The notes beneath the pieces are model-generated. The model was not told the origin of the DNA. It ran no database searches and saw only the letters and a list, made by a program, of their open reading frames with translations. 32,731 bases of DNA from a virus, in IMG/VR virus record IMGVR_UViG_3300028361_000084, positions 1 through 32,731 of that record, one strand, 5' to 3'. The translations under genes were made by a program, and so were the position numbers. Shown one piece after another: positions 1-32,731 of this stretch. Each line of letters begins with the position of its first letter. Position 1 is the first letter of the stretch.

Positions 1-373
1 CATACGCCATCCGCGCCGCATTTGCCGACTCAGTAGGCAGGTTCATGCCCAGTTGTGCCGCCGCGCCAATTTCCTCAATCGAATAGGAATACATGACGCC
101 CGCCATATTGACGGTCTGCTCAAACTTACCGGTCGTTATATCAACGCGCGGGATGTCGTCCCCTTTGCCATTGATGAATTTTGCGCGCCCGACCGAATCC
201 TGCGTGAAGAACGTGACGGATGCTGCGAATTGATTTGTCGACGTGTCCACCTGCATCAATCGCGGGTAGAGGATCGTCGGATAGGGTTTGCGCATCACCT
301 CGGCTTCGATGTGGCTGCGCTGCGAAATGACGAAACCCAAAGCTGCGGGCGCGTCCATGATCTGCGTGTTCAT
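1..373 (-). CDS. Major capsid protein, DUF2184 family (N-terminal part)
   Basis: This encodes the first 124 residues of the phage major capsid protein; the rest lies beyond the window start. Features typical of the DUF2184 capsid family are seen: an R-S-H-I-E-A-E-V stretch, then YPRLMQVDTS, a VTFFTQDSVGRAK block, DDIPRVD, and the SIEEIGAAAQLGMNL segment preceding the hinge of the HK97-like fold. The ATG at 373 is preceded by AAGGAGC at 7-nt spacing, so the start is firm. It follows the cement protein gene by 12 nt. In related phages this protein is cleaved or assembled with the DUF2213 protein and decorated by the cement protein. Family assignment is from motif recall, not a search. Confidence 0.88.
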   Translation of the reverse strand, partial: MNTQIMDAPAALGFVISQRSHIEAEVMRKPYPTILYPRLMQVDTSTNQFAASVTFFTQDSVGRAKFINGKGDDIPRVDITTGKFEQTVNMAGVMYSYSIEEIGAAAQLGMNLPTESANAARMAY

Positions 374-385
374 TGTCTTTGCTCC

Positions 386-5051: not shown

Positions 5052-5245
5052 GCGAAAAGCCTCCGAACCGCGTATGAGCGGATGATTGATGCGCCCGTGT
5101 AAACTGCTGTGATGCCCCAAGCGTGTGAGGCTGTGACGTGATACCCAAACGCGGGCAGCACAGTGAACGTCAGGGCTAGTGAGACGCCGAATCCTATGGC
5201 TGTGGACGCTACAGCCTCAAGCGCGCTTAGGCGGCGAGGTTGCAT
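5048..5245 (-). CDS. Small membrane protein, DUF7220-like
   Basis: This 65-residue protein has a conserved pattern seen in small phage proteins: MQPRRLSALEAVASTAIGFG, a hydrophobic stretch (LALTFTVLPAFGYHV), then AVYTGASIIRSYAVRRLF. Two hydrophobic helices are likely, with a basic tail, so it should sit in the inner membrane. The resemblance to DUF7220 is from memory. Its start overlaps the methyltransferase end by 19 bp, and its stop is coupled by ATGA to the small terminase. An AAAGG lies upstream of ATG 5245. Its function is unknown; the family is repeatedly found just before terminase genes. Confidence 0.75.
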   Translation of the reverse strand: MQPRRLSALEAVASTAIGFGVSLALTFTVLPAFGYHVTASHAWGITAVYTGASIIRSYAVRRLFA

Positions 5246-6411
5246 CGTTCAGCCTTTAGCTCGTCGTATGTCTGGCCTGTGGCCTCAAGCGTTGCTGTTG
5301 CGCCTGCGAAGGCTTGCCAGCGTTGGATTATCACGTCGCAATACTTGGGGTCGAGTTCCATCATAAACGCTCGCCTGTCCGTGTTTTCACAGACGATGCA
5401 AACCGTCCCACTACCAGCAAACACGTCCAATATCGCGCCCTTAATTGGCACAGACAAAAAGTCCACAGAGAAATCTATAACCTCAGCAGGCTTTTGTGTC
5501 GGGTGAACTGATCCACGCAAAGCGCCCCGATTTACAGTCTTGCTGCGCAGCGGCTTATCTTCGGTCGTCCATGCCAGTTCACCGTCTGACATGGTTAAGC
5601 CGTCTTGGCCTTTACTCCAATAAATCCACCCACGAGTTGCAGGCAACAGGTCAGCGAAGTAATTACCGCCCCAAATAACAGAAGGGACGCCTAACGCAAC
5701 GATCCACGCAAAAATTGAAGCGTTGGGCCTTTCGTTGTCCCATCCCCTTTTTTCATGAAACTTGCGGTTGTGTTTGGGGTTTGCGCTCACAGACTTCTTT
5801 TGCCCGTCAATGCCAATTCCATAAGGTGGGTCTGTGATGACAGCGTTTGGCGTCACACCATCCATCAGCTTATCAACCGCATCAATGCTAGTGCTATCAC
5901 CGCACATCAACCGATGCCGCCCTAACAGCCAAACATCGCCCTCAACAGTAACGGGCACCTCTGGCGCATCCGGCACCGCGTCCTCGTCCGTCAGCCCTTC
6001 GGTTGGCTCTGCTAAGAAGTCGGCAATCTCACCCAAGTCAAACCCGGTCAGCGTCAGGTCAAAGCCCGATGCGTCCAGATCCGCAAATTCCAGCTTCAGA
6101 AGTTCAACATCCCATTCGGCAAACTCTGACACTTTATTGACGCTCAGGCGGAACGCCTTGATCTGCGCGTCGGTCAGATCGTCGGCCAGGATCACAGGCA
6201 CCTCGGTCAGGCCCAGCTTTGCGGCGGCTTTGAGCCGAAGATGACCGTCCACAACCGTGCCGTCCGACTTGGCGACGATTGGCACGCGAAACCCAAACTC
6301 ACGGATTGCAGACGCCACCTTGTCAACGGCATGGTCATTCTTGCGCGGGTTCCGGGCATAGCCGATGCAACGCTCGATCGGCCATGTTTCAAACTGCAAA
6401 GTCACTGGCAT
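5227..6411 (-). CDS. ParB-N domain / DNA N6- or N4-methyltransferase
   Basis: This 394-residue protein fuses an N-terminal ParB/sulfiredoxin-like domain (residues 1-105, with VDGHLRLKAAAKLG at 54-67) to an S-adenosylmethionine-dependent DNA methyltransferase. The catalytic motif DPPY is at 194-197 and the SAM-binding motif DVFAGSGT at 329-336, preceded by VHPTQKP at 302-308. That order places it in the beta class of amino-methyltransferases. Such phage enzymes usually methylate adenine in short sites and protect against restriction. No cognate restriction enzyme is nearby. It starts inside the HNH gene end (10-bp overlap) after the ribosome-binding sequence AAAGGACC, and is placed to be made just before packaging. 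Confidence 0.92.
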   Translation of the reverse strand: MPVTLQFETWPIERCIGYARNPRKNDHAVDKVASAIREFGFRVPIVAKSDGTVVDGHLRLKAAAKLGLTEVPVILADDLTDAQIKAFRLSVNKVSEFAEWDVELLKLEFADLDASGFDLTLTGFDLGEIADFLAEPTEGLTDEDAVPDAPEVPVTVEGDVWLLGRHRLMCGDSTSIDAVDKLMDGVTPNAVITDPPYGIGIDGQKKSVSANPKHNRKFHEKRGWDNERPNASIFAWIVALGVPSVIWGGNYFADLLPATRGWIYWSKGQDGLTMSDGELAWTTEDKPLRSKTVNRGALRGSVHPTQKPAEVIDFSVDFLSVPIKGAILDVFAGSGTVCIVCENTDRRAFMMELDPKYCDVIIQRWQAFAGATATLEATGQTYDELKAERCNLAA

Positions 6412-15362: not shown

Positions 15363-15583
15363 GCTGCCGCCTCCGCATTGGCCAGCGCGGCCAAGCCACT
15401 GGGCGTGATCGTCCAGTTTTCGCCTTGCGTCCCGAACCTGCCAAAATCAGCCCCGCGAATGAGGCCCTTTTCGTTGAGCGCGGCCAACACCTTCGGGTGC
15501 GCGTCAAGATTGCGCCCGGTGCGCCATTGCTCGTCCGATAGCCGGGCGAGGACGGTGTGCTGCTTGGGGGTGAGGGAGGTCAT
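15359..15583 (-). CDS. Small winged-helix protein
   Basis: This 74-residue protein is a predicted winged helix: LTPKQHTVLARLSDEQWRTG forms helices 1 and 2, HPKVLAALNEKGLIRGADFG holds the recognition helix and turn, and ENWTITPSGLAALANAE the wing and last helix. It resembles small phage and MarR-like domains. It is the second gene of the leftward operon, coupled by ATGA on both sides, and probably acts in the same regulatory circuit as the XRE-like protein. The DNA target is unknown. Confidence 0.7.
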   Translation of the reverse strand: MTSLTPKQHTVLARLSDEQWRTGRNLDAHPKVLAALNEKGLIRGADFGRFGTQGENWTITPSGLAALANAEAAA

Positions 15584-15798
15584 GCTGCACCCCCAACCGG
15601 CGCGGCATTCATCTTTGCGCGGATGCCCTCAATCGTGGGCCATCTGGGGTCGCGGCCATTCTCAAGGTCTCGCAACAGGTTCGGGTCATTGACAGTCCAG
15701 ACCCCAAACGCGGTTTTGGACATGCCACTAAGCGCGCGGTAGCGATCAATCTCGGCCACCAGCTTCACTATCTCGGGGTTTTTCACTGCGATGTTCAT
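15580..15798 (-). CDS. XRE-like phage repressor, first gene of the leftward operon
   Basis: This 72-residue protein is a short helix-turn-helix regulator of a type common in alphaproteobacterial phages: IDRYRALSGMSKTAFGVWTV (helices 1-3) and DPNLLRDLENGRDPRWPTIE (recognition region and helix 4). It lacks a cleavage/oligomerisation domain, so it is Cro/small-repressor-like rather than LexA-like. ATG 15798 has no ribosome-binding site; a promoter-like TTGCAA (15833-15828), 17-nt spacer and TAATGA (15810-15805) put the transcript start on or near the A of the ATG. Operator O1 lies in that spacer, so the protein probably represses itself. It is coupled by ATGA to the next gene. Confidence 0.75.
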   Translation of the reverse strand: MNIAVKNPEIVKLVAEIDRYRALSGMSKTAFGVWTVNDPNLLRDLENGRDPRWPTIEGIRAKMNAAPVGGAA

Positions 15799-15953
15799 GC
15801 CACATCATTAGGAAACATCCTAACGTCTTGCAACAGGAAACTTCCAATTCGCACCGCAATCGCGCGAAAATATATTAGGAAGTTTCCTGTTTTAGTGTTG
15901 CGTTAGGAAATATCCTAGGCCATAGTTCCCCCAACAACTGAGGAGACACCGAC
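15799..15953. promoter_or_regulatory. Divergent control region with four operators and two promoters
   Basis: Four 16-bp dyads of consensus TTAGGA-AANN-TCCTAR lie at 15808-15823 (O1, perfect arms), 15833-15848 (O2, weakest, core GGAAACTTCC), 15875-15890 (O3) and 15903-15918 (O4). Rightward promoter: TTGCGT 15898-15903, 17-nt spacer, CATAGT 15921-15926. Leftward promoter: TTGCAA 15833-15828, 17-nt spacer, TAATGA 15810-15805 on the minus strand. O4 and O1 fill the spacers of the rightward and leftward promoters. The arrangement resembles the operator-promoter regions of temperate phages; the binder is inferred to be the adjacent XRE-like protein. Confidence 0.78.
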
Positions 15954-16628
15954 ATGAAATACGAAATCAAACATCGCTGGACGGGGCGGGTGATCTTCAC
16001 CGCCGAAATCGAATGCGACGAAAGACAAGCCGCAAACTTCAAGCTCGGCTTGGCCATCAAGGTTGCTGTGGGAAAAGGCGCGGACCTCAAAGGCGCGTAC
16101 CTCGAAGGCGCGTACCTCAAAGGCGCGTACCTCAAAGGCGCGCACCTCGAAGGCGCGAGCCTCAAAGGCGCGTACCTCGAAGGCGCGCACATCGAAGGCG
16201 CGTACCTCAAAGGCGCGCACCTCGAAGGCGCGAGCCTCAAAGGCGCGTACCTCGAAGGCGCGCACATCGAAGGCGCGTACCTCAAAGGCGCGCACCTCGA
16301 AGGCGCGTACTTTGGGAGGGTTCCCATTATCCCCAATATTCATACAGCGGTATACGAGGCGTCAACCCAAACACCGGAATCTCTGGATATGGGCCGTTGG
16401 CACTCATGTGGGACAACGCACTGCCGTGCCGGATGGGTAACGACGCTGGCGGGCGAGGCGGGCGCTAAACTGGAAGCTGAGATTGGCACACCAGCCGCTG
16501 CCATGGCGATCTACGCCGCAAGCGACCCTGAATATTTACAGCGCGACGGGTGCCCCGATTTTTTATGCGGGAATGATGCTGCTCTGGCGGACATGAAGCG
16601 CCTTGCCGAGTTGGAGACATCGACATGA
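15954..16628 (+). CDS. Pentapeptide-repeat protein, first rightward gene
   Basis: This 224-residue protein has a short N-terminal beta region (MKYEIKHRWTGRVIFTAEIE), about sixteen pentapeptide repeats of the type A-(Y/H/S/D)-L-(K/E)-G at residues 42-122, and a C-terminal domain with LDMGRWHSCGTTHCRAGWV, LEAEIGTPAAAMAIYAAS and PEYLQRDG, which often follows such repeats in phage proteins. Pentapeptide repeats fold as a right-handed quadrilateral beta-helix; some mimic DNA and bind gyrase, but that is not shown here. A 75-bp block is duplicated in tandem. It lies directly behind the operator region with AGGAGA eight bases before the ATG. Confidence 0.88.
   Translation: MKYEIKHRWTGRVIFTAEIECDERQAANFKLGLAIKVAVGKGADLKGAYLEGAYLKGAYLKGAHLEGASLKGAYLEGAHIEGAYLKGAHLEGASLKGAYLEGAHIEGAYLKGAHLEGAYFGRVPIIPNIHTAVYEASTQTPESLDMGRWHSCGTTHCRAGWVTTLAGEAGAKLEAEIGTPAAAMAIYAASDPEYLQRDGCPDFLCGNDAALADMKRLAELETST
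16126..16307 (+). repeat. 75-bp tandem duplication within 15-bp pentapeptide repeats
   Basis: Positions 16126-16200 and 16201-16275 are identical 75-bp blocks (five pentapeptide codon units), and a third partial copy continues to 16307. The whole array from about 16078 consists of 15-bp units such as GGCGCGTACCTCAAA and GGCGCGCACCTCGAA. Because 15 is a multiple of three, all frames stay open, which explains the overlapping open frames on both strands. Confidence 0.95.
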
Positions 16629-18598: not shown

Positions 18599-18853
18599 AT
18601 GCAACGGACAGACAACGCACTAGAAACTATTTCGGTGAAGGGTGTGCCGCCTCGGCTTTTGAGCTTAGCCGACGCGACAGCCTACTTAGGCGACAGTCGA
18701 GCAACGCTCTACAAATTGCGAACAGCCCTTCTGAGCCAGTCGGTTCATCTGGCGGCGCTCTTGCTGTGGCTTGGGTCGGTCGCGCTCAATCTCGTTCAGC
18801 GCCGAGTTGAACACGTCAACGCGCGCCCATGCTTCTTCCGTCAGCCGCTTTGA
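18599..18853 (+). pseudogene. Truncated excisionase/AlpA-like HTH gene
   Basis: From ATG 18599 (GGAG seven bases upstream) the first 40 residues carry a clear MerR/HTH_17 excisionase-type motif: PRLLSLADATAYLGDSRATL then YKL. In the family this is followed by a charged wing and a C-terminal helix, but here the frame changes to hydrophobic nonsense (LLSQSVHLAALLLWL) that is antisense to a genuine leftward gene. The homology stops at residues 39-40, exactly within a 13-bp sequence (18708-18720) repeated at 18914-18926. This looks like a gene cut by a rearrangement. A short functional peptide cannot be excluded. Confidence 0.6.
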
Positions 18854-31786: not shown

Positions 31787-32193
31787 CCGACCCGTGCCTT
31801 TGCTTTTGCGATAGACGCCCTCACAATCGCGGGCCATTGATCGACGGCACCCTCGACAAAGTGTGCGCCGGGGCGGCCATTGCGGCCGTTGTTCACCGCT
31901 GCAGCGTATGGAACATCGCCATTACCCCAAGTAAATGTTGCTAGATCGCCGCCCTTCATACTGGCAGCGATCATGATATATGATTCCTCGCCCTCTCCCG
32001 ACGCACCGCCAGCCACTGACGATTGCAGGCTGTTGCGCAAGTTGCCCGTGTCAACAGGCATGCGTCCGCCTTTGGCCTTGGTGACTTGCGCGACAGCCAC
32101 GACAGATTGCGTCGCGTCCTTCAGCACGGCATCAATCCGGCGTTCGGTTTTTTTAGTCCACTGGTCAAGCTGGGCCCATGTATATTTCGCCAT
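31783..32193 (-). CDS. HK97 gp10-like minor structural protein
   Basis: This 136-residue protein (MAKYTWAQLDQWTKKTERRI, LKDATQSVVAVAQVTKAKGG, RMPVDTGNLRNSLQSSVAGG, DVPYAAAVNNGRNGRPGAHF) carries the diagnostic P-V-D-T-G-x-L-R-x-S motif and a Y-A-x-x-V-x-x-G-like segment of the HK97 gp10 family, head-tail joining proteins. ATG 32193 shares a base with the upstream stop (TAATG). The frame upstream of it is spurious. Confidence 0.87.
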   Translation of the reverse strand: MAKYTWAQLDQWTKKTERRIDAVLKDATQSVVAVAQVTKAKGGRMPVDTGNLRNSLQSSVAGGASGEGEESYIMIAASMKGGDLATFTWGNGDVPYAAAVNNGRNGRPGAHFVEGAVDQWPAIVRASIAKAKARVG

Positions 32194-32731
32194 TATTCCA
32201 GCCTCGCAAAGAAGTCGATTATGATTTCCTCGTAGCATCTGCAATTTACGATTTCAGACGCCGGTGCGCCCATACTTGAGTCGAGCGGAAACATCAGCGA
32301 AAAGCCGCCCACAATAAACGGCTCCCCATATGCCACCACCTGACCGTCGGCTGCTGCATGTGTCGGTCGCGTTTTAGCATCACCCGTGGCGTCCCACTTG
32401 CCCTTTTTATCCTCAGCCCGCACATCATTGTTCGGGTTTTCGATAAGCTGCGCGACCGCCTCATGCCGCCCTGCACTCAAAGCCCTCATAGTTTCTGTGC
32501 GGGCGATGGTTTCGCCGCGTTGCCGCAACAGATTGTTGGAATATCCCTGCGCGGCCCTGTCAATGGCCGTCTGGGGCAGGGTTGTTCCATCCCGAATGGC
32601 GCGAAAAATGGCGGCGTCGGATTGTTTGTTGCGCGCTGTGAGTGTGCTTTTCAACGTGCCGTCATTGCCGATCCAGAACGCCTTGACCGGACGCGATGCG
32701 CCCGTGACAGGATCGGTGACAATGCGCACAA
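32193..32731 (-). CDS. MuF-like head morphogenesis protein (C-terminal part)
   Basis: This is the C-terminal region, 178 residues or slightly more, of a phage Mu gpF-like minor head protein; the N terminus is beyond the window end. Seen are RPVKAFWIGNDGTLKSTLTA, GYSNNLLRQRGETIARTETM (the conserved R-x-x-T-I-A-R-T-E motif), WDATGDAKTRPTHAAADGQV and the terminal SEIVNCRCYEEI with the conserved N-C-R-C. Such proteins sit inside the portal vertex and are probably ejected or needed for head assembly. It precedes the gp10-like gene, as usual. Confidence 0.9.
   Translation of the reverse strand, partial: VRIVTDPVTGASRPVKAFWIGNDGTLKSTLTARNKQSDAAIFRAIRDGTTLPQTAIDRAAQGYSNNLLRQRGETIARTETMRALSAGRHEAVAQLIENPNNDVRAEDKKGKWDATGDAKTRPTHAAADGQVVAYGEPFIVGGFSLMFPLDSSMGAPASEIVNCRCYEEIIIDFFARLE

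Follow-up and report, generated by a model that had tools for sequence, protein, structure and literature searches.

The DNA analyzed in this study is the IMG/VR phage contig IMGVR_UViG_3300028361_000084, the whole of which (32,731 nt) is referred to here as the window. No near relatives among sequenced phages were retrieved by megablast. Head genes are cut at both ends of the window (1-385 and 32193-32731): judged from the translations, one is probably the major capsid gene and the other encodes a minor head protein. The genome represented by the record seems nearly complete, with its opening in the head cluster; because the cut falls within head genes, part of the genome is unseen, and on a circularised map the missing part lies inside the head gene cluster. 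Leftward from 15798 run a gene for a 72-aa protein, small genes and genes for a VRR-NUC nuclease, a primase-helicase, a terminase, a portal protein and a protease, and the tail and lysis genes follow this block on the circularised map. The rightward operon starts with a pentapeptide-repeat gene, whose likely ribosome-binding site, as read from the sequence, is GAGGAG at 15940-15945, and continues with many small unknown ORFs, some of them with faint similarity to HTH_17 or RHH_1. One such ORF at 18599-18853 (plus strand) has faint HTH_17 (excisionase-like) similarity (E 0.088) and may be a remnant of integration functions. Within the pentapeptide gene (16069-16310), a 15-nt DNA repeat of high regularity was also observed. 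The features at and beside the intergenic region are as follows.

15580-15798, minus strand: gene for the 72-aa Cro-like HTH protein (by family profile, fold and operator distance), first of the leftward replication/structural operon
15805-15833, minus strand: putative leftward promoter, PR equivalent, TTGCAA-17-TAATGA
15808-15823: operator O1, OR1 equivalent, TTAGGA-AACA-TCCTAA, a perfect 6+6 dyad in the spacer of the leftward promoter
15833-15848: operator O2, degenerate OR2 equivalent, ACAGGA-AACT-TCCAAT, 25 bp from O1 as in the related locus L120
15849-15874: interval of 26 bp where relatives have OR3 and the cI gene (comparison with L120)
15875-15890: operator O3, OL2 equivalent, TTAGGA-AGTT-TCCTGT, two mismatches
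15898-15926, plus strand: putative rightward promoter, PL equivalent, TTGCGT-17-CATAGT
15903-15918: operator O4, OL1 equivalent, TTAGGA-AATA-TCCTAG, one mismatch, in the spacer of the rightward promoter
15954-16628, plus strand: pentapeptide-repeat protein gene (Pfam Pentapeptide, E 1.9e-20; PHROG 31265, E 1e-66), first of the rightward early operon

The interval 15799-15953 thus contains four related dyads, whose centres are separated by 25, 42 and 28 bp. The first-pass annotation had given all four as TTAGGA-AANN-TCCTAR; their positions and spacings were reproduced, and the common formula is overstated, since O2 deviates from the consensus (TTAGGA...TCCTAR) at four of its 12 specified bases and the right arm of O3 departs from it as well. 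O2 and O3 are exact reverse complements across 14 nt (AACAGGAAACTTCC). When the plain consensus was searched with up to three mismatches, 7 matches were obtained window-wide against 4.3 expected, which is not significant. AGGA-N4-TCC occurs four times on the plus strand of the whole 32.7-kb window, each time within 15799-15953. With a weight matrix for which 32 operators of relatives served as the sole training set, O1-O4 took ranks one to four window-wide (23.1, 22.7, 19.7 and 16.9 bits; next best 12.6), and the fourth-best site never exceeded 10.5 bits in 300 first-order Markov simulations. The four dyads are real.

The leftward and rightward promoters are weak sigma-70 matches, and a consensus promoter scan of the region reported neither of them; its sole report was TTCGCA-17-TATATT at 15848-15876, a possible second rightward promoter whose start would fall inside O3. 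Both weak promoters are nonetheless credible, because the same hexamers and the same operator-in-spacer geometry recur at orthologous places in relatives. The geometry of the leftward promoter is repeated in L009 (TTGCAA-17-TAAAAT), L120 and phage MinM1, and the rightward promoter aligns with those of the OL regions of L120 (TTGCGC-17-CAAAGT) and L123 (TTGACG-17-TACCTT). This recurrence, together with the placement of O1 and O4, bears out the earlier proposal of a divergent switch with an operator in each promoter spacer; O1 additionally overlaps 3 nt of the leftward -10 element. The start codon of the 72-aa gene lies 9 nt past O1, an operator-to-ATG distance shared by L009, L119, L120 and L122, and this spacing suggests that the mRNA of the 72-aa (cro) gene is probably leaderless or nearly so.

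By Pfam, the 72-aa protein matched HTH_31 only below the cut-off, and this was the sole HTH_31 match in the window. Neither a search with the single protein nor a narrower first alignment run against genome contigs retrieved related loci, and homologues were found with a broader alignment. The protein matched the resulting family profile at E 4.8e-22, the window sequence itself being among those used to build it. It is 67% identical to the L009/L010 homologue and 43% identical to that of Synechococcus phage MinM1 (ON981384), and homologues are also present in further phages and many Sphingomonadales contigs. Members from the window, MinM1, L009 and Sphingomonadales share sequence homology and the conserved core FGxxAVxDPxLVxxLxxGR, and Pfam matches, both weak, were obtained for only 2 of 28 members. 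The protein is a member of a small HTH family, found in phages and Sphingomonadales, for which Pfam has no dedicated model. Its AlphaFold model consists of four helices (pLDDT 81), and the best Foldseek matches were XRE, HipB and C-protein HTH folds, with weak E-values (best 0.34), as is expected for an HTH protein of 72 residues. Readings of the protein as a restriction-modification controller or as a HipB-type antitoxin were rejected: for each there is fold similarity only, and neither a restriction partner nor a toxin partner was seen alongside. In MinM1, the Cro-like gene (L002:9983-10207), which lies opposite an S24 repressor, is absent from the public annotation, which instead places an ORF on the opposite strand across part of it. 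Nothing relevant to MinM1 or to this Cro-like family was found in the literature searched.

GGA-N4-TCC was found upstream of family genes at 84 of 95 distinct loci, the window included, against 3.6 expected (0.038 per locus), most of these loci being related Sphingomonadales and hence not independent. Apart from the window, 12 of the 15 phage and plasmid loci carry the motif, one of them (L018) with the dyad inside the gene. When 2.9 million viral contigs were scanned, blind to protein content, with the leftward promoter/operator pattern TTGC-N6-TTAGGA-N4-TCCTAA, a family member was present in 6 of the 10 stretches retrieved, from 4 lineages, each with its start codon 9-10 nt past the operator. 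With a three-operator pattern, 21 stretches were retrieved from the viral contigs, among which 12 carried a family member; other fused four-operator cases were absent from these contigs at the strict consensus tried. From these scans, an operator in the promoter spacer followed directly by the start codon is a recurrent arrangement of the family. That the motif travels with the family favors the 72-aa protein as the most likely binder, as had been suggested from the window. In the relatives, CI and Cro probably both use the dyads; for this reason the conservation of these sites does not by itself tell which protein binds.

In dozens of Sphingomonadales genome contigs (L034-L113), an S24/HTH repressor gene is paired with a gene for a Cro-like protein of about 58 aa, with a TAGGA-N4-TCCTA dyad between them. 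At one locus (L017), such a chromosomal repressor/Cro-like gene pair is flanked by TonB receptor genes, and it may represent a phage switch that has become domesticated.

The gene opposite the family member usually encodes an HTH or HTH-S24 repressor, with a Peptidase_S24 match in 22 of 28 cases and matches to HTH models in others. The order OL, cI, OR, cro was found in L114, L120, L122 and L123, where a second dyad pair lies past the CI gene, over a promoter pointing away from the cro side; this pair is the OL equivalent. In L120, OR and OL are separated by OR3 and the CI-like gene. A tyrosine integrase is encoded in the records of L010, MinM1 and 7 of 9 further relatives, and an integrase accompanies L114, L120, L122, L010/L123 and MinM1. 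Judged by gene order and homology, the 72-aa protein occupies the Cro position. The first-pass annotation had set the locus apart from lambda-type systems, partly for the lack of a cleavage domain in this protein. The comparison does not support this contrast: in the relatives, these operators and the small protein are the components of a lambda-like OL-cI-OR-cro region, and such a lack is normal for Cro.

No CI-like gene was detected in the window by HTH_3, HTH_26 and S24 profiles, or by tblastn searches in which the products of the opposite genes in relatives were the queries (best E 0.013). Matches to PF00589 (tyrosine integrase) and PF00239 (serine recombinase) were likewise absent from the window, the record being incomplete. 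OR3 is missing, only 26 bp separating O2 from O3. The O2-O1 half aligns best with the OR of relatives (score 71 against L120), and the O3-O4 half with their OL (77 against L120 and 66 against L123), whereas aligning one half with the other yields a score of only 45. An origin of the O3-O4 half by inverted duplication was rejected, because it matches the OL of relatives far better than its own O2-O1. The simplest account of these alignments would be that cI and OR3 were lost and PL/OL was joined to PR/OR; the wide occurrence of a CI-like gene in relatives points to a loss and not to an ancestral state. The symmetry, previously taken for a purpose-built design, is better explained by the meeting of PL/OL and PR/OR without cI.

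With a probability of roughly 0.7, we consider the region to be a lambda-like PL/PR control region that naturally lacks cI, with autoregulation by the Cro-like 72-aa protein, which also damps both early operons. O1 and O2 would form the OR1-OR2 pair on the promoter serving the Cro-like gene and the replication operon, and O3 and O4 the OL2-OL1 pair on the other early promoter. Most likely, on the model of lambda Cro, the protein is made from a near-leaderless mRNA and binds each 16-bp dyad as a dimer; once bound, it would fill the promoter spacers and block RNA polymerase, thereby limiting its own synthesis and turning both early operons down as infection proceeds. A phage without cI and integrase is probably virulent, yet still sensitive to the repressors of related prophages, and this one looks like a naturally virulent relative of phages capable of dormancy.

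Two other explanations are unlikely. The 72-aa protein might itself be the immunity repressor of a purpose-built one-protein bistable switch without a separate CI, as the coverage of both promoters by the four sites and the failure to detect a CI-like gene in the window could suggest, but its gene is the first of the replication operon, its homologues stand opposite CI-like repressors in the Cro position, and no integrase was found in the window. The phage might also be temperate, with an ordinary switch whose cI is displaced and with a repressor or integrase of an unrecognised kind or in the unsequenced part of the genome. The head genes cut at the contig ends and the small rightward ORFs, some faintly HTH_17- or RHH_1-like, leave some room for this, but the missing part sits in the head gene cluster of the circularised map, and OR3, the cI-adjacent site in relatives, has gone as well. 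It is likewise unlikely that a lone Cro-like protein on four spacer-embedded operators provides a decision or reversible dormancy, that is, immunity without CI, or that the operators were retained as an adaptation letting a resident prophage CI silence the phage. An artefact in which the assembler dropped cI from a mixed population is very improbable even though the O2/O3 junction is spanned by one contig only, since there is no long direct repeat between the operator clusters to collapse and the O2/O3 copies are inverted; the near-identical contig L003 begins within the repeat-bearing pentapeptide gene, just past the junction, which suggests that the assembly broke at the repeat.

A widespread small-protein family without its own Pfam model is now tied to the operator TTAGGA-N4-TCCTAA and to a Cro role. 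Under the favored cI-less reading, the locus would be a natural case in which Cro and its operators are retained where cI is absent, making testable what selects Cro in purely lytic growth, and would illustrate that a symmetric-looking switch can arise through simple cI loss.

Among known systems, the C.Esp1396I type of restriction-modification control resembles the window in the fold of the 72-aa model. The 72-aa gene instead neighbours genes for replication and for the pentapeptide-repeat protein; the closest methyltransferase found was a ParB-MTase at 5227-6411, and the locus was not assigned to this class. In lambda, the immunity region has the order OL-cI-OR-cro, and Cro autoregulates and represses the early operons. 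As in lambda, the window has two operator clusters on divergent early promoters, with operators overlapping promoter elements, and a small HTH protein gene as the first of the replication operon. Adjacent cI and integration genes were not found; the window also differs from lambda in lacking OR3, in having two sites per cluster and operators within the -35/-10 spacer, and in a Cro-like protein from a different HTH family. The CI-cro regions of L114, L120, L122, L123 and MinM1 share with the window the homologous Cro-like protein, GGA-N4-TCC operators, a TTGC promoter with an operator in its spacer and an ATG about 9 nt beyond, but differ in having a CI-like HTH/HTH-S24 gene opposite cro, three OR dyads and integrases in their records (L010/L123 for L123). 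Mycobacteriophage D29, in comparison with L5, is an example of a natural virulent derivative of a temperate phage, its repressor having been lost by deletion. Like such derivatives, the window keeps operators and early promoters while the repressor is missing; the repressor systems are unrelated, and in the window the putative loss has united OL with OR in a single region of about 110 bp.
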